From Chromera velia (taxonomy: Eukaryota > Sar > Chromeraceae), in the NCBI GenBank assembly GCA_018398765.1, contig JAHBMJ010000021.1:17501-37500 (forward strand): a DNA stretch of 20,000 nt. The letters are read 5' to 3'. Every line of letters begins with the position of its first letter. The first letter of the stretch is position 1. Under the pieces are notes generated by a model, which did no database searches, was not told the origin of the DNA, and saw nothing but the letters and a program-made list of their open reading frames with translations. This document shows, in pieces, positions 1,617 through 11,796 of the stretch. The position numbers and the translations under genes are program-made.

Positions 1617-2398
1617 TTAATTCTTTTCCGCTTTCTTCTTCCGCAACTCCTCCAGATACTTTTTGTTCACCGCCTCGATATCGGCTTCCCCCATCTGCTG
1701 ATATCTGTACGCAGCAGGAAGAGAAAAGGAATAAAAGGAGGCAAGATGAATCGTTCTCTCTCGATCATTCCACCTCTCTGCATTTTTCCCGCGAAGCATC
1801 CTTGCAGAAAGACAAAAGGATAAAAGGAAGACATGATGAAAGGGGAGGAAAGAGAGAAGAGCGAAGAAGGTGAAAGGGGAGAAACATGAGAGGGGACCAA
1901 AAGCAAAGCCCACTGTTCCCTCCCTCCCTTCCTCACCGTTCGAACTCCATTGAGAACTCCCCCTGTCCCTGTGTGGCCCCTCTCAGATCAGAAATGTACC
2001 CGAACATGTCCTTCAAGGGAACCTCCGCCTCCACCACGGACTGCTCCCCCGAGTCGGTGATGTTGATCACCATCCCCTTCCTCTTGTTAATCGTCGACAG
2101 CCCGCTCTGCTTGTGCTCTGTTGGAAGCATCACCTCCACCTTCATGATGGGCTCCAATATCGTCGGCATCGCGTCCAGGTAGAAGTTCCTGCAGGCAGAC
2201 AGGCAGGCGGACAGGCAGGGACATACAGAAACGGGGAGACATGCTCGTTTTTCCTCTAAATAAAGGTGTTCCACGATAAAGGAGTGTCCTCCAGAACCGA
2301 ATTAGCTGTTTCGACCAGTGTGTTCGTACAGGCTACAGGCATCCAAGAGGAAGAGACATAGACACACATAGGGACAGATAGACGTGCAAATAGATGAA

Positions 2399-2433
<35 letters not shown>

Positions 2434-3338
2434 TGAAGGGGAGAGGACACAGAAAGAAAGCAGGACCAACTTGAAAGCCCCATTTGCGCACAAACGGAAT
2501 GCATAGTCTGAGGAGTCGACTTCATGACTCTGTCCATCAGACACAACCACCTGCAAAAAGAAAACGATAACAGGCGCACAATGAGGAATCCCCTACAGAC
2601 AAGCAGCTAAGGACAGAAAGAGCCAACAGCGGAGAACAGATACGAAGAACATGGTGCAGAAGAGCACACTGCGAAAGGTAAAAGAGTAAAAAGTGATACG
2701 GCAAGCCGAGGAGATGCGGAGAATACAATTGAAATACTCTTTCGCTCTCTTTCTTCTTTGAAGGCGCCATATCATCCAAACCTAGCACAGTTGAGGCTTC
2801 CGAGGTACCTCCCCACACAGAGAGTCACAAACAAAGAAAACTGCACGCAGACAGACCTTCATGTTGATCACCGGAGACCCCGACAGATGCCCCTTGGTGC
2901 AGCACTCCTTGAAGCCCTTCTCGATCGAGGGGTAGTAGTTGGGGGGGATGGGGTTGCCCACCTGCACAACCACACGAAGACCAATACAGACACAGCCGGC
3001 AAAAAAAGGTGTCCCTTTCGGTCTCACTATCCGCGTGTCCCGTTCATGTTCTGGAAACTCTGTCAAACTCATACTTGTCAAACTCTCCGCATGGTTCGGA
3101 GTCTTTTTCAGAGGTTCTGAACCTTTTCGAAGACCCAGGCGGGTTCAGGGAGCCGAAGCAGAGGCAAGCAGATCACTGGATAGAGAACGCCATCCCAAAC
3201 AAATCACCACTTCAGAGACTCAATTCCGAAGAATTTCGGTTCCTATCTTGCCCACAACTTCCCTGGAGGGATCCATAAAGCACATCAAACCAAAGAAGGG
3301 ACCAAAGATTGGTTGCTCCACTGGACAAAAGAAGGACC

Positions 3339-3369
<31 letters not shown>

Positions 3370-6300
3370 TAACGATTTGATTGGAGAAAGTGATGCCGTC
3401 CTGTTGTCCGAATTCTTCCATGGGAAGAGGCTCGAAGAAGCCTTGCAATTTTGCGTACTGCCCTCTTCCCCCGCTCTGCCTCTTGTGAGTGTAGTCAAAC
3501 CTCACTTGCTGCGTGATGGTCTCTCTGAATGCCACCTTCGGCTCTCCCGTCACTGCCTCCACCCCGTACTCTCTCTTCATCCTCTCTACGTAGACGCCCA
3601 GGTGCAGCTCTCCCATCCCGGCAATGATGTGCTCCTTCGACTCCTCGTCTACAAAATACTGCATGAGAGAGGAGGGAGTGTGAAGAGAGGTCAACGATTT
3701 TGGTAGGGACAAATGCACGTGGGAACCCCCACAGAAGTCCCGCAGAAACAGTAAGGATTCTCAGAAAAGGACGGAGACAAAAGTGAATGGAACAAAAAGA
3801 AATGAAAGGCGCGCCCGTTAAGCAGGAAGTTGGTTGCTCGAAAAGGATACCCTTCATCACGTTACTCCTTGAGATCCCCCTTTCCCGCCTTCATTTCGTT
3901 CCACCCCGTCCCTGCCTGCCTGCCTGCCTGCCTGGCTGTCTCCTGACCTTGAAAGTCGGGTCTTCCCTCATGAACCTCTTCACGGCCTTCACGAACTTCC
4001 CCACCTCCGCGTTCTTCGGGACGTCTATCGATAGAGACACGACTGGCTCGGGCACAAACATGGACTCCAGAGAGACGTTCGACCGCCCGTCTGTGAACGT
4101 TGTGCCTGAAGGCAGGCAGAGGGGGAGGATAGATAAATAAATGAGGGTAGGTTAGGGGGAGATCTGCGGATACTTCTTTATGGCCGGCAAGAAGGCGTAA
4201 CCACCGCATTTGTGCCTGGCCAGCGGACAAGCGCGAAAGTGGAACGCGACTTCACAATGAATGCCTTAGCACAACCCTCCCTCTCCCCCGTCCGTCTAGC
4301 TCGCTCACCTGAGGCGCATTCTATGCCCCCCACCGCAACGATCTCTCCCGCCCTCCCCGCCTCCGTCTCTCTGGCTTCGTCCGCGTGCATCTTCAGCACC
4401 TGCACTCACAAATCATAATTTAATTCGAAGCCAACTGATGGACAGCTTTCGGAATGGCGAGAGAATTTGAGGTAAGCTCAGAGACTGGAGAGGACTGCAA
4501 GAGAGTCGGTAGAAGGAGAAGAAAGAATAATTGATCGACAGAGATCGGAGAGAGAACAGAGGGCAGCAAAGCACCTGAGGGGCGAAAGAGACAGGCCACG
4601 TAAACAGAAGACAAGACACGAAAAGGGAACAGAGGCAGCTAGAGGAGGAGCCTCAGGGACCTTCGCCCCCCCCTTTTCACTCACTCTCGTATATCCCTTT
4701 GTTCCTTCCTTCCTGACCTGTTTCACCTGCACCTTCTTGTTCAACGTCATGTCGATTAGCCCCATTCCCTTTCGCATGGTGCCCTGCAAATGTGTGTGTG
4801 CATAAGAGGGAAGGAAGAAATGGACGGGGGAGGACACAGAAAGCCGTCTTGTTGTCAAGCGACACACGTGCACACAACCTCAGGGGGCAGATAGACGATG
4901 AAATGAGAAAACATTGAGTGAAGGCCCTCCCTTCCCCTCTTCTCTTGGAAGTCAACGACGACAGCCCACAGCTCAATGGGAAGAAAGAGGGGAAGACAAC
5001 ATTATGACAAATAATGAACCTGTCGGCCGATTGCCTGAAAGCGAAAATCACGGAATGCGCCAACCTGATAGACACGGAAGTAAGTCAACTGCCCAAATCC
5101 TGGTACTTCTTGAATTTTGAAGGCGAGGGCAACGAGAGGGTCCCTCGGATTGGAGCTCAGGACAATCTGCACACACACACGCAATTGCATCCAGGTACTG
5201 ATGTGACAGGATAAAGAAAAAGGAAACCAAAAACCCTCACATCGGGATCGACCAGAGGAAAAACCAGTTCATCGGTTTGCGCATCCACGGGGGAAAAAGG
5301 GAGGTTGGGTTTGATCCTGGTTTTGTAAGGGGGGGCATGGGCAGTCACATGTACGAGATTGAAGAAGTAAACTCAGCGTCACTTTTCTTTCTTTCTTTCT
5401 TTCCCTCGTCAACTATGCAGCGGAATCTATCTGGTCCCTTTCCGCCTGAAGGCCCCTCTTTCTTCATTCATTCTCTCTTTTCGTTCCGATGAGCGACATG
5501 TGAAATTCCTTTCCCACTCCACGAAAACAAGCAAGGCACTCACCTCTTCCTCCTCCCCCTTCGCCAGATCGAGCGCCTTATTCTCGACCTCTGCAGGAGA
5601 CGGCAAGTACCTGCAAGCAACGATCCAAGCAGTGATTTCACATCCTCTTGCACTCCTCTTTAAGTCCATCCGCAACATGCCGTGCGTCGGCATTTTTGCT
5701 GACCCATCCATGTAGCTCTTCAAATGTCTTCCCATAAGAGCAGCCATCAAAGATCCCTCCCTCCCTTCTCTTCAGCCAGTTTCCCTTGCCCGCTCTTCTT
5801 CCCTTACCCGCTTCCTATGCGAACGAAGAGAAAATGCAACTTTCTGCACCCACACAATCAACAACAAAGACGACTTCCTGCTTTGATGTCTCCACGATTG
5901 CGCAAAACATCGACGGACACGGCAGGCAGGAAGGCAGGCAGGCAGGAAATTCCCCCCCATAGAGGGGAAGACCCAGCAAGGAGAAAGAAACAAACTTCTC
6001 CTTCCCAACGCCGACTTCAACAGTCGCCTCGGGGGGCAGCTCAGCTCTGCTGAGATCAGCCGAGAGGCCCTGAGATCGCACGCACTCGCATAACGCATTT
6101 TTTCATTTTTTGGGGGGGGGGTTTGGTTCTGTCTCCGTCATGGTCGGTCGGTGTCGCCCAAATTCCAAAATTTGCCCCTCAAGCAACTCGCACGGAGCCG
6201 CGATCGCGCGATATTTGGTTCGCACGATACGTGCCCCTCAAGTAACTCGCACAGAGCTGCATGTGTGAACACGCGCGCGGTCCCGAAAAGCATATTTCGC

Positions 6301-6443
6301 GCGCGTTGCCGTGGCCCCCGCCACTCGTCCGAGCACGCAAGACATGCCAAAGCCCCTGATGGTGTGCATCGATTAAATTGGCCCACCCCCTGAGTGGCCC
6401 CCCGAGGCACTCACCCAACAGGTTGGGTGTATCCCGTTACACA

Positions 6444-6498
<55 letters not shown>

Positions 6499-6809
6499 AG
6501 AGAGAGAGAGAGGGTAGAGAAGCCCACCCACCTGCAGACTGCATCCAGGAGGTTCTGGACGCCTTCGTTCTTCTGTGCAGACCCCATCAACATCGGCACC
6601 AGGTTGTGTGCCAACGTTTGTCTCCTGATGGCTGCATCCACTGCCTCAACGCTGACCTCATCCTCCAACTCTAAAAAGGTCTCTGCGAATTCGTCGTCCA
6701 AGTCCGCCAGGAGTTCAAGGAGAGAGGCACGGACCTTCGCCACCTGCAAAAACAAAACGAAGAACAAGTCACAGAGAGACATGAAGAGACTGACAGAGAG
6801 AATGTGCGT

Positions 6810-6844
<35 letters not shown>

Positions 6845-8421
6845 AGAGAAGGAGAGACTAACACAAACGGAGAGATGGTACGGAATACTTGCCATGTTGC
6901 GAAAGCCAATCGAAAGTTCTTTCCTCTCAATCTCTTCCAACAGAAACACAAAAGCCAGGCGAAACCTGAAAGAAAAACAAAATGCTCCAGGATTGCACAG
7001 GAAAGCAGAGAGACAGTGCACAGCCACAAGCACTCCCCTGGTCATTTCGCCGAGGCACTCACCCCCTCGTCCTAGGAAGGCACTCACCTCCTCTTTGTAT
7101 TTGTCTGGCACCTCCATTTCCACTCTCTGGTTCCCCTTATGGCCCTCAAAGAGGTAGGCCTTCCTTCTGACGACGTCACATATTCCCTCGTGGAGATGCT
7201 CTAGACCCATGGGAATCTGGACAGAGGAGGGAGGGAGGAGACGCACACCTATGCAGAAATTTGAACGTGCAATTCACGTTTGCGATAGAAGTCTTTGAAG
7301 GCTGGCGGACAAAGCAGGGAACTGTCAAGAAAACTTAAGGGTACGCCCTCTGCAAGATCAGCACACATGTCACCTCTCTTTCTCTTTCAGTTTCTCTCTC
7401 TCTCTCCCACACACACACACACACACACAAACGCACAAACACGCAAAGACACACACACACACCCTCTCCTGTATCCATTCCCTTCTGTTCCCACCCACCT
7501 GAATTGGGTGGATGGTCAGCCCCAGTTTCTTTTTGGCCATCTCGAGGGCCCTCCAGGGGTCCGCACCCGCACGATCGAGTTTGTTCACAAACAGGACACG
7601 CGGAATCTGATACCTGCAGGAGAGGTGGCGAGATGGAATTTTCACATCAGTTTTTCCACGGGAAAGGAGAGGTTCGTCCTACCAACATACACACACTCGA
7701 ATGGAAGGAGACAGAAGGGAAAGGAAGCGGGAGAGGAATCCGTTTTGAAAGAGGGAACGGTGGCGAACGGGGGAAAGAACATCGTGAGGAGAGTGGACCA
7801 CAAAAAGCGGAAGAAATCCCGTGGAAGAATTTCTTGGATCGCCCTCTGCCTGCATGCCCACCTGCGCATCTGACGGTCGACAGTCAACGTCTGTGACTGG
7901 ACCCCGGCAACCGCACACATGAGAAGAACGGCCCCGTCCAGCACACGAAGGGCCCTCTCCACCTCTATTTGAAAGTCAACGTGCCCCGGCGTGTCGATAA
8001 TGTTAATATTGTGTCTTTTATTTTCCACCTCCCATTCTGTGAAGGTGGCAGCTGACTGAATGGTGATCCCCCTTTCCCTTTCCAACTCCATAGAGTCCAT
8101 CTTGGCACCCACCCCGTCCTTCCCTCCCACCTCATGGACCTCCTTGATCTTCCCTGTGTAGAACAGAATCCGCTCTGTCGTGGTGGTCTTCCCGCTGTCT
8201 ACATGAGCACTAATGCCAATATTTCGGACCTTGTCAAGGTCAACCATGTACTCATTGGCCTTCTTGCTGCCACTGCTTGGGGCTGACGCGAAGCCACGGA
8301 CAAAAGGAGACGGCAACCGAAAAACAAATGGTGAAGCCCTGCGTCGCAGCGCTACGGGGAAGGAAGCCGACATCCGACATCCCAGAACGGCCCGGGGAAA
8401 TCCAAGCGAACAGAACCCCAT
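1617..8421 (-). CDS. GFM1: Mitochondrial elongation factor G1 (EF-G1mt), 14 exons
   Basis: This is the GTPase that moves tRNA and mRNA through the mitochondrial ribosome after peptide transfer. Minus-strand exons, in order: 8421-7862, 7613-7499, 7216-7088, 6743-6532, 5610-5544, 5166-5065, 4783-4718, 4399-4309, 4105-3948, 3658-3374, 2961-2857, 2550-2471, 2188-1937, 1704-1617. They total 2310 nt, 769 aa plus TAA, all in phase; human GFM1 is 751 aa. Residues 1-65 are Arg/Ser/Phe-rich with few acidic residues, like a mitochondrial transit peptide. G motifs: AHVDSGKT 72-79, RGITIQ 117-122, DTPGH 143-147, NKLD 197-200, GSAQK 322-326. Later marks are GMGELHL 514-520, SGGRGQY 562-568, LEPIMKVEV from 668 and [11 protein letters not shown] in domain [18 protein letters not shown] marks the mitochondrial EF-G1 class. 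Met17 is an alternative start. Family assignment is firm; each exon edge was placed by GT-AG and family alignment from memory. Confidence 0.97.
2399..2433. repeat. (TG)n-(AG)n compound microsatellite
   Basis: About nine TG units run directly into about eight AG units, inside GFM1 intron 12. Confidence 0.95.
3339..3369. repeat. (GACA)n microsatellite at the intron 10 donor
   Basis: About eight GACA units. On the gene's strand this reads GTTAGTCTGTCTGTCTGTCT directly after exon 10, so the repeat begins at the splice donor itself. Confidence 0.95.
3911..3934. repeat. (CCTG)n microsatellite near the intron 9 donor
   Basis: Five to six CCTG units. On the gene's strand they are CAGG units starting about 13 nt after the exon 9 donor (GTCAGGAGACAG). 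Confidence 0.9.
5921..5947. repeat. (GGCA)n microsatellite
   Basis: Imperfect GGCA tetranucleotide run in GFM1 intron 4, interrupted by one GGAA. Confidence 0.9.
6173..6258. repeat. Diverged 59-bp-spaced direct repeat in a CpG-rich insert
   Basis: TGCCCCTCAAGCAACTCGCA (6173 on) recurs as TGCCCCTCAAGTAACTCGCA (6232 on), and both continue into a CRGAGC-like tail. The surrounding DNA at about 6120-6400 is rich in CG dinucleotides (for example GCGATCGCGCG and CGCGCGCG) and lacks the purine tracts of the other introns. It makes up much of the extra length of intron 4, so an inserted sequence is likely. No element family is recognised. Confidence 0.75.
6439..6513. repeat. (AC)n-(AG)n compound microsatellite
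   Basis: About eleven AC units followed by a long AG tract with GGGAG interruptions. It lies in GFM1 intron 4 close to the exon 4 donor at 6531. Confidence 0.95.
6809..6852. repeat. (GA)n microsatellite
   Basis: GA tract with GGGAG interruptions in GFM1 intron 3. Confidence 0.95.
7050..7088 (-). repeat. Tandem copy of the exon 3 splice donor
   Basis: The GFM1 exon 3 donor GGTGAGTGCCT (minus strand, 7088-7078) is repeated 25 bp further into the intron (7063-7053). The downstream copy is GGGTGAGTGCCTCGG, and the same 15-mer occurs again in intron 4 at 6416-6402. Use of the inner donor would add 25 nt and break the reading frame, so the outer one is the coding choice. Confidence 0.75.
7391..7430. 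repeat. (TC)n-(AC)n compound microsatellite
   Basis: TC tract followed by about ten AC units in GFM1 intron 2. Further AC units lie at about 7451-7462. Confidence 0.95.
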
Positions 8422-9556: not shown

Positions 9557-11796
9557 ATGGACGTAGAAGACCCCCAAGACGCGCAATTCGACGCTTCCCC
9601 CACTGACGCCTCTTTCGTGCCGTCTCTGGCCAAAGTCCTCACGCACCTGATCTCCATGAGCCAGTCGACAAGAGGGCAGGTCAGCACGGCCGTTTGGGGC
9701 TTTGGACAGACCTCGCTTGCGGTGGATTTGTGTCTCGCTCTCTCCACCTGCGAGTACCCGCCTTCGCGTATCTGTGCGTGAAGCTATGTATGTGTTTGTG
9801 TGCACGTGTGCGTGTGTGTCTGGAAACGAGTTTGTTCGTCTGCCTGTTTGGCTTTTTGTTTGATTGTTTGTTTGCTTATTTGTTTGTTTTTATGGACCAA
9901 TATACAGGTGACCTTTTGGGAGTGATTGAGCAGAGAGGGAAGCGAGGGGAGAGAGAAAGGTGGTGAAAAAGAGAAACAGGAGATCAATGAGGACCAAAGG
10001 GAAGAGGGGGGAACAGACAACCTGTCTGTCTGAAAAACGGAAGGAAAGAGACGAAAAGAGAACAGAAGAGTGGATGGTTTGCATTTGTGTGTATGAGAAC
10101 TAAATAACCTGTGAGTCACCTTCTGTTGACTTCCTTCATCACAATATCCCAACAAAGTTTAGAGGATCGTATTAGAATCATGAGTTCGTGTACTTCACCG
10201 AGCCTCTTGGACAAATAGTCGATTATTTGATTTGTGCAGATCACGAGGTTTCACGCCATAAAGGCGCCGAACATCTCCATACACGACTATCTGATGAGGT
10301 CGGTCGGTGAGAGAACACTTCGACGTGCTGCTCGCTTTCTTCCACACTCGTCGGTTTGTGGTCGTTCTGCCTCGATTCCTCGAAGCACTTCGCACAGAGG
10401 AAGGAACATTACATTCCGTTCCTCGGCATTCGGTGAGGAGGTTTTTGAATATGTTTGTCCGTTCGGGAGGAAAATACGCAAATGGGAAAAGCAGCGCCCA
10501 TGCAGCTCTGTCTCTCGCCACCTGTTTTCTCTTTTCAATAGTTACAGACGCACGAACCCCCCTCTGCAGGTTACCTGAAACAAATGCGAAGCAGCTCCGT
10601 GATGTGAACAGCAGTTTGTGAACAGCTCCGTGGTGTGAACCTGAACTGACTGCTGGATCATTGCCTTTCTCCTCTGCGTATGTGTGTGTGCAGGATAGCG
10701 AAGTACTTTGGGTGTTCGCACGAGTGTTTCGTCCTGTCGTTGGTGTACATCGATCGCATCGTCAAGATCCACCAGGACTTCACTATCAGCTCTCTCAACA
10801 TTCACAGGTAGACAAGCATTTCAGGGAAATGTATTCTGTATGAAAGTCAATGCATGCACCAGGACTTCACTATCAGCTCTCTCAACATTCACAGGTAGAC
10901 AAGCATTTCAGGGAAATGCATTCTGTATGAAAGTCAATGCATGCACCAGGACTTCACTATCAGCTCTCTCAACATTCACAGGTAGGTAGGTAGGTAGCAG
11001 AGGGAAGGAAACAGAGAAGAGAGAAAGAACATCAGTGTCAATGCGGTGGGAAGCAAGAGAATCAAACAGAAGGGGAGGGGGTCAAGCAGACATTGCACCT
11101 CTCTAAGCGTGTGTCTGTTCTTCGGTTTCTTTGACTCAGACGACGACTTCTGTTTGCCCATCCAGGTGCTTGTCTCTTCCTTCCTGTTTCTCTCTGACCT
11201 GACCTGACTGCATGGACTTCATGGACGAAAAAAACTAAATAAATGTCTTCCCTCCCGCCTTTTCTTTCTTTGCCACAGGTTGCTGGTGACGGCCATCATG
11301 CTGGCAGTGAAGTATTTTGATGATAAGTACTACGCAAACGCGTACTACGCCAAAGTGAGTCAGGCAGTCAGTCAGTCGGCCAGACGTACACCACAAACCA
11401 GGCAAGCGCATCCATTCTCACGCAGACACGCAGATCTTGCACTTTTTTTTTCTCGGAGCGATCCTTCTCTCCAGCAGCAACACCGTCTCTTTCCCTTCTT
11501 TTTCCATCGCTTCCTGTTTCTTTCCCGCTTCGTCTGTTTCGTCTGTAGGTGACTTCATCCTTCTAATGATGTCTGCACTTGATTCTTTCACTCTTCCTTT
11601 TCCTTCTTCAGGTTGGGGGTGTGAAGACTCGAGAGATCAACGTATGCATACTATCTGTATGTATGAAAGTAAATGCAAATTCCCTTCTTCAGGTTGGGGG
11701 TGTGAAGACTCGAGAAATCAACGTCCTGGAGGTCCACTTCCTGACTCTGATAGGGTACCAACTCTTTGTGACTCCCCAGGAGTACGAACAGTACAG

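Follow-up and report, generated by a model that had tools for sequence, protein, structure and literature searches.

The window, by which we mean the whole stretch of 20,000 nucleotides from Chromera velia analysed here (contig JAHBMJ010000021.1, positions 17,501 to 37,500), carries a gene for mitochondrial elongation factor G on the minus strand (positions ~1940–8421), which has many introns with mostly GCAG acceptors, and a gene for a PHO80-like cyclin on the plus strand. The first-pass annotation had reported that two splice junctions of the cyclin gene are duplicated and that the DNA between the copies is related at both places. Upon re-reading of the window sequence, both duplications and the common linker proved to be real.

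The end of cyclin exon 3 and its donor are present in three 42-nt copies at 87-nt spacing, with no differences among them. Copy A (10770–10811, plus strand, as are all features that follow) comprises the final 38 nt of exon 3 and 4 nt of intron, with a donor GT at 10808 that is predicted to be the donor in use. It is followed by a 45-nt insert (10812–10856), the right arm of which ends in TGTATGAAAGTCAATGCATG and which contains the centre remnant GCATTTCAGGGAAATG. Copy B (10857–10898) is intronic if the donor of copy A is used; a second 45-nt copy of the insert (10899–10943, 1 base different from the first) separates it from copy C (10944–10985), after which the remainder of the original intron begins. 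The second copy of the insert is probably the product of a later tandem duplication of target copy and insert, after one insertion.

The start of exon 5 and its acceptor are found in two 45-nt copies at 81-nt spacing that are identical at 43 of 45 positions. Copy A (11599–11643) has its acceptor AG at 11610–11611, copy B (11680–11724) at 11691–11692, and the latter is the acceptor predicted to be in use. Between them lies a 36-nt insert (11644–11679) with the right arm TGTATGAAAGTAAATGCA and the partial left arm ATGCATAC. Both kinds of insert share an 18-nt core, TGTATGAAAGTMAATGCA (10837–10854, 10924–10941 and 11660–11677). When up to 3 mismatches were allowed, the window contained exactly these 3 matches, compared with a mean of 0.02 in shuffled sequences, and none of 200 shuffles reached 3. 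The small palindromes next to the linkers, which had been described as separate features, turned out to be part of the insert itself. As a single strand, the first insert folds unremarkably (z = -0.47; 60 of 200 shuffles fold equally well) and the second with a modest excess of stability (z = -2.13).

If the outermost donor (10808) is spliced to the outermost acceptor, so that exon 5 begins at 11693, the product is an ungapped PHO80-like cyclin that matches Pfam PF08613 (E = 2e-30) and PDB entry 2pk9 (E = 3.6e-18). Both inserts lengthen introns, and the edges of these introns are backed by the cyclin alignment. Provided that the outermost splice sites are used, the inserts should be silent. 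Read-through beyond the first donor runs immediately into an in-frame TAG, and use of the inner exon 5 acceptor leads to an open in-frame extension of 27 residues within the conserved domain. From the reading frame, an alternative exon or isoform of the cyclin made through this inner acceptor is therefore possible.

A dispersed repeat flanked by long duplications

We searched the 177.8-Mb genome for the core and found 980 + 1,005 = 1,985 matches with up to 2 mismatches, compared with 7 + 4 = 11 for the reversed pattern; the figure of 1,985 counts core matches and not insertions, as arrays and two-armed inserts are counted more than once. Rfam gave no match in the window, and in five of the other loci 43 weak matches, mostly to miRNA precursor models and none at the gathering score. 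Two samples of loci were then read. For sample 1, 100 listed matches fell into 68 clusters, one of them being the window, and 60 of the other 67 were fetched (of the 7 clusters left out, three lie near contig starts and four came late in the list). Further loci were found through other patterns, some of them chosen by the base following the core. Because every locus was picked up by way of an intact arm, heavily decayed inserts escape this sampling.

At 213 of 220 core matches in sample 1 (92 loci), the sequence preceding the insert is repeated after it. Among random positions taken from comparable loci, 50 of 600 (8%) attain such a duplication score, owing to simple repeats. The lack of linker enrichment at other duplications that the first-pass annotation had named as refuting its claim was not observed. 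Among the 7 core matches without a scored duplication, two are located at most 35 nt from the end of the stretch that was read, and three or more display a weak repeat by eye; at the level of loci, 2 of 91 (L036 and L045) have no scored duplication, though weak ones are seen by eye. L058 was left out of the events because it doubles L099, and a microsatellite match at L042 was also removed (93 to 92 events). Sample 2 consisted of 40 places found with a longer arm pattern. Of these, 38 scored or were arrays with a duplication (random positions: 58 of 600), and 37 were kept after exclusion of two arrays (L149, L154) and one low-scoring place (L156).

The combined 129 events were reduced to 119 by removing those with a duplication longer than 75 nt or an insert longer than 112 nt. 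The duplications in this set have a median length of 41 nt (5–95% range 23–59, full range 14–74, SD 11.5), and the fixed target duplication length that is a feature of terminal-inverted-repeat (TIR) transposons and MITEs was not found. The two target copies have a median identity of 96%, and 35 of the 129 pairs are without mismatch, gaps aside. They diverge to varying degrees, which suggests that the insertion sites differ in age and makes it unlikely that the duplications are assembly errors. No strong motif was apparent among the targets, apart from CA being mildly favoured where target and insert meet (37 of 238 joints, compared with 7.3% in the loci; tested as 37 of 237, p = 1e-5).

In five loci (L025, L035, L060, L096 and L149, on contigs C135, C353, C963, C3482 and C2694, respectively), target copy and insert form arrays of ~4–9 near-identical units, for example nine 64-nt units at C135 and 60-nt units at C963. 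These arrays probably represent local tandem expansion of a single insertion.

Two other spaced duplications came to our attention. At L122:2419–2543, a 52-nt duplication including an acceptor (TTTCAG/GCACGAAG) occurs at 73-nt spacing, with no core recognisable by eye between the copies; it could be either a fully decayed insert or a different kind of junction duplication. Positions 6173–6257 of the window and L026:2067–2154 harbor the same 24–26 nt sequence on opposite strands, each within a spaced duplication, and may belong to a second dispersed repeat family.

Arms, palindrome and outer ends of the insert

At the sites read, an insert comprises a single arm or two inverted copies of it, truncated at the inner end independently on the two sides. 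From outside to inside, the arm consists of zero to two TGCA units followed by TTTACTTTCATACAGAATTCTTTTTCAGGGAGCGCTC, with small variants and a length of up to ~45 nt. When two complete arms meet head to head, the result is a perfect palindrome centred on GAGCGCTC. In a genome search, the inner 38 nt of this palindrome were intact at one place only (C2506), where the stretch folds as a long hairpin (-75.6 kcal/mol, z = -15.3). The whole single arm of 37 nt matches 42 times if up to 3 mismatches are tolerated, including 8 exact matches, on six contigs, and most arms that we read are shortened. The consensus with the centre GAGCGCTC was derived from the longer arms; an early 63-nt consensus, which it replaced, did not match even when 3 mismatches were allowed, and the inner 27-mer of that early version matched 3 times. 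In 49 distinct long arms, which are already inserted copies and a part of all long arms, the bases G, C, G, C, T and C following CAGGGA are present in 35, 31, 30, 24, 27 and 18 cases, respectively, and there is no clear consensus past GCGCTC.

The interior of the inserts is rarely shared. In a pairwise comparison of 85 inserts, the best pair matched over 0.86 of the shorter length and included a 14-nt insert, and all pairs of ordinary length remained below 0.79. The inner joint is seldom common to different sites, and one that recurs has 7 matches genome-wide at up to 2 mismatches. Filler between the arms frequently consists of pieces of the arm itself, as judged by eye. Within a site, the length of one arm does not correlate with that of the other (Spearman 0.11, p = 0.33, n = 83), nor do long and ordinary arms differ in their partners (p = 0.36).

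With a loose score, which 15% of random segments reach, 97 of the 119 inserts have two arms and 22 have one. With a strict score, reached by 1% of random segments, two clear arms are seen in 83 of 119 and the second arm is absent in 36. The number of sides without an arm depends on the method of counting (zero in 23 of 83 left arms in sample 1 and in 9 of 36 other arms in sample 2). The 22 one-armed inserts of the loose score do not have shorter duplications (median 45 vs 40 nt, p = 0.18). Some of them are complex, and others (L134, L159) consist of a single arm that sits flush between the target copies.

The outer ends of the arms are not precise, as they would be in a TIR transposon or MITE: the number of TGCA units varies, and the joints display microhomology with the target. 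Directly outside the arm, we counted 0, 1 and 2 TGC(A/G) units in 49, 94 and 31 arms, respectively. For microhomology, 106 of 238 outer joints could be counted (of the remainder, 78 lacked an arm anchor close by, 19 fell out of range and 35 carried bases off the register). In 78 of these 106 joints the TGCA register extends into the target by 1 nt or more, and in 44 by 2 nt or more, compared with 29% and 7.5%, respectively, for random genomic sequence. The excess is also clear against a fixed-end null (0.47 and 0.173; p = 2e-8 and 4e-9, respectively), in which a fixed end may be extended by chance and which was worked out by hand from the random rates.

Two inward-facing pairs of arms were considered as ends of one longer element. 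The pair on C1386 (~2.8 kb between the arms) and the pair on C665 (~4.7 kb apart) each proved to be two separate short inserts, every one with its own target duplication. The inserts at L122:211–327 and 3055–3163, which lie ~2.8 kb apart and have a target duplication each, had at first been taken for one long element. A further candidate pair lies on C2922, 22.6 kb apart.

Splice-site-like signals in the duplicated segments

To score splice sites, we used a weight matrix trained on manually read introns of the elongation factor G and cyclin genes of the window (13 donors, 15 acceptors). A strong splice-site-like signal was present in 55 of the 92 duplications of sample 1, compared with 24% of same-length windows from the same loci (p = 3e-13), and in 16 of the 37 duplications of sample 2, compared with 14% of control windows (p = 2e-5). 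This corresponds to an enrichment of ~2.5–3x over nearby windows in both samples, and similar values were obtained with arrays removed (38 of 68 vs 22% in sample 1, 14 of 33 vs 15% in sample 2). The signals peak in the middle of the duplication, at 22–23 per kb vs 4–14, mostly ~8, in the surrounding bins. In a loose consensus test, donors occurred in 28 of 92 duplications vs 5–18% of control windows; for acceptors, the figures were 61 of 92 vs 39–50%.

Donors and acceptors are each enriched at the main threshold. With stricter thresholds, the enrichment was retained in sample 1. In sample 2, the donor enrichment by itself was then no longer significant (3 of 33 vs 7%, p = 0.41; 2 of 33 vs 4%, p = 0.37), and both signals combined gave 4 of 33 vs 4% at the strictest threshold (p = 0.048). 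The intronic part of the donor-bearing duplications measures 2–11 nt in 22 of 36 cases, which is shorter than uniform placement would give (KS p = 6e-5); it is possible that this reflects a preference for the 5' splice site. The upstream donor copy scored better in 15 cases and the downstream copy in 4, with 17 equal, but the two copies do not differ significantly in score (Wilcoxon p = 0.14). Acceptor copies showed no bias (17 vs 15, 9 equal).

Insertions in the interior of exons are presumably removed by selection. However, insertions deep in introns or between genes should escape it, so we would argue that selection alone seems insufficient to account for the excess of these predicted signals. 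The first-pass annotation had seen in the linker a mobile or templated insert that duplicates splice-site-bearing DNA and perhaps creates introns or alternative exons. The dispersed insert, its duplications and the splice-site-like signals within them agree with the first part, and "templated insert duplicating splice-site-bearing DNA" is a well supported description. The idea of new introns finds no counterpart in the window, where the inserts only lengthen existing ones.

Possible origin of the inserts and related systems

Target-primed reverse transcription of LINEs and SINEs is characterized by target duplications of variable length, truncation away from the priming end and short repeats at the priming end. 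The inserts of C. velia have all three hallmarks. We tentatively prefer a reading, although we would stop short of calling it probable, in which a short template is copied onto both ends of a widely staggered break. Two nicks on opposite strands, ~20–60 nt apart, would open the target. Each exposed 3' end would anneal over 1–2 nt to the TGCA terminus of a single short template, either DNA or a small RNA of ~45 nt. Extension along this template, by a repair polymerase or a reverse transcriptase, would stop at variable points. Microhomology would then join the two tails, or a tail to a bare end, with full-length tails meeting through the self-complementary GAGCGCTC, and gap filling would produce the long duplication. 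Splicing at the outermost donor or acceptor would remove the insert together with the spare copy, and insertions at junctions could thus be tolerated, as predicted for the cyclin. Copying of this kind would explain at once why the arms are identical and independently truncated, why some inserts have one arm only, and why the TGCA units vary, the joints show microhomology and the duplications differ in length.

A close rival, which we infer to be nearly as likely and regard as a serious possibility, is a non-autonomous palindromic DNA transposon (MITE-like). Its TIRs would be the ~37–45 nt arms, its transposase would cut the two strands 20–60 nt apart, and its unstable centre would be deleted or scrambled. 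A TIR transposon, too, leaves inverted arms and flanking duplications, and arms of unrelated length could equally result if an inserted palindrome broke and its broken ends were nibbled back; both points count against template copying. The perfect palindrome formed by two whole arms, its intact inner 38 nt at C2506 and the presence of both arms in most inserts under either score are further arguments for a transposon. Long and variable duplications are reported for two members of the bacterial IS1634 family, IS1549 and IS1634, which have direct repeats of 8–514 bp; according to that review, no mechanistic model had been proposed by then (PMC2266710). However, these elements are 1.5–2 kb long and carry a transposase, and other members of the family have 5–6 bp repeats (PMC2266710), whereas in the loci that we read no coding element was met and most inserts are shorter than ~110 nt. 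A transposon is also difficult to reconcile with a duplication length that is not fixed and with interiors that are rarely common to copies. Extra assumptions are required for outer ends with differing numbers of TGCA units and with microhomology to the target, and for single arms flush between target copies as in L134 and L159. The candidates for kilobase-scale end pairs, on C1386 and C665, are not long elements.

It is unlikely that the inserts are excision scars, that is, that a longer transposon inserted with long duplications and later left, so that its ends and some end-joining filler remain. The retained ends, the rarely shared interiors and a filler that by eye often repeats pieces of the arm would fit such a history, but no long element was seen in the 131 loci of both samples (a rare parent among the other matches could be missed), and the common sequence fades at the centre of the palindrome, which a longer parent does not predict. 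More improbable still is ordinary local tandem duplication, whether by slippage or through repair of a break, with a filler that is templated or due to chance; the repeat would then be a common filler and not the cause. Arrays such as those at C135 and C963 do exist, and the 87-nt unit in the window is itself duplicated. However, local duplication leads one to expect unrelated fillers, yet the core is contained in 48 of 56 spaced duplications within 163.6 kb (a biased set, 60 of its 61 pieces having been chosen for the core), and the same arm recurs in many hundreds of places, which speaks against it. An artefact of palindromes in a short-read assembly, for which one could cite that the published C. 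velia genome, if it is the same, was assembled with Velvet at a k-mer of 71 (PMC4501334) and that a perfect palindrome >71 is problematic, is scarcely credible, given that target copies differ at most sites, unlike false copies, and that outer splicing restores an ungapped cyclin.

Among the closest known systems, introners of algae, fungi and others are likewise short and dispersed in genes. Many of their families have inverted ends or target duplications, and they recruit splice sites in part from the duplicated target (PMC9860276). The variable, ~40-nt target duplications described here, mostly 23–59 nt, far exceed the 3–9 bp cited for some earlier introner families (PMC9860276), and the inserts in the window lengthen existing introns. 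The word 'Chromera' does not occur in the main text of that paper. In Amoebophrya, an alveolate, introners form inverted-repeat hairpins in introns, but they have direct repeats of 3–5 nt and non-canonical splice sites, and a family-specific inverted repeat is not reported (PMC7789003). New introns of Daphnia similarly go back to insertion at staggered breaks and have direct repeats at their edges; the repeats shared with the adjacent exon are 4–12 bp long (PMC4202315), whereas here one recurring repeat forms the insert. Direct repeats at or near the borders of 213 of 213 introns, 4–30 bp long with a mean of 11.4 bp, have been read as traces of insertion (PMC11782384), but the account of these repeats gives no common insert, unlike our case.

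Other systems resemble the inserts in their joints. Telomerase can insert RNA-templated sequence at breaks, and at mammalian interstitial telomeric sequence (ITS) loci microhomology of at least 1 nt is seen at 67–80% of informative loci (PMC2246262), compared with the 78 of 106 joints reported above. The inserts in C. velia differ in that they are not telomere-like, mostly contain two inverted arms and have long duplications at nearly all sites read. Penelope-like retroelements likewise show inverted copies, junction palindromes, target duplications and joints with microhomology, but the duplications described for them are 8–10 bp, and these elements span kilobases and carry a reverse transcriptase gene (PMC3846280). 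Casposase generates duplications of 15 bp (PMC9939771). Among the titles and abstract openings of the open-licence literature, we found none that describes this insert family, which is weak evidence of novelty.

Copying of a template onto break ends, our preferred reading, may be taken one step further, to a proposal that is rather doubtful: a system of this protist could tag the two ends of widely staggered breaks, preferentially at exon-intron junctions, with copies of an RNA of ~45 nt that are primed by TGCA microhomology and joined head to head. If this is true, each event would duplicate a splice junction and plant a palindrome-derived insert in a gene. The inserts would then be a class of mobile sequence without an inherited interior or a fixed target duplication, the link to splice sites would go beyond selection alone, and the system might be cellular or selfish.

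The ~2,000 core matches provide enough events for working out the rule of insertion. When a whole donor or acceptor lies within the duplication, use of the outer site can splice the duplicated DNA out, and such insertions could therefore build up in genes, make introns longer and provide spare splice sites. One way in which introns grow and alternative splicing arises thus becomes directly testable.
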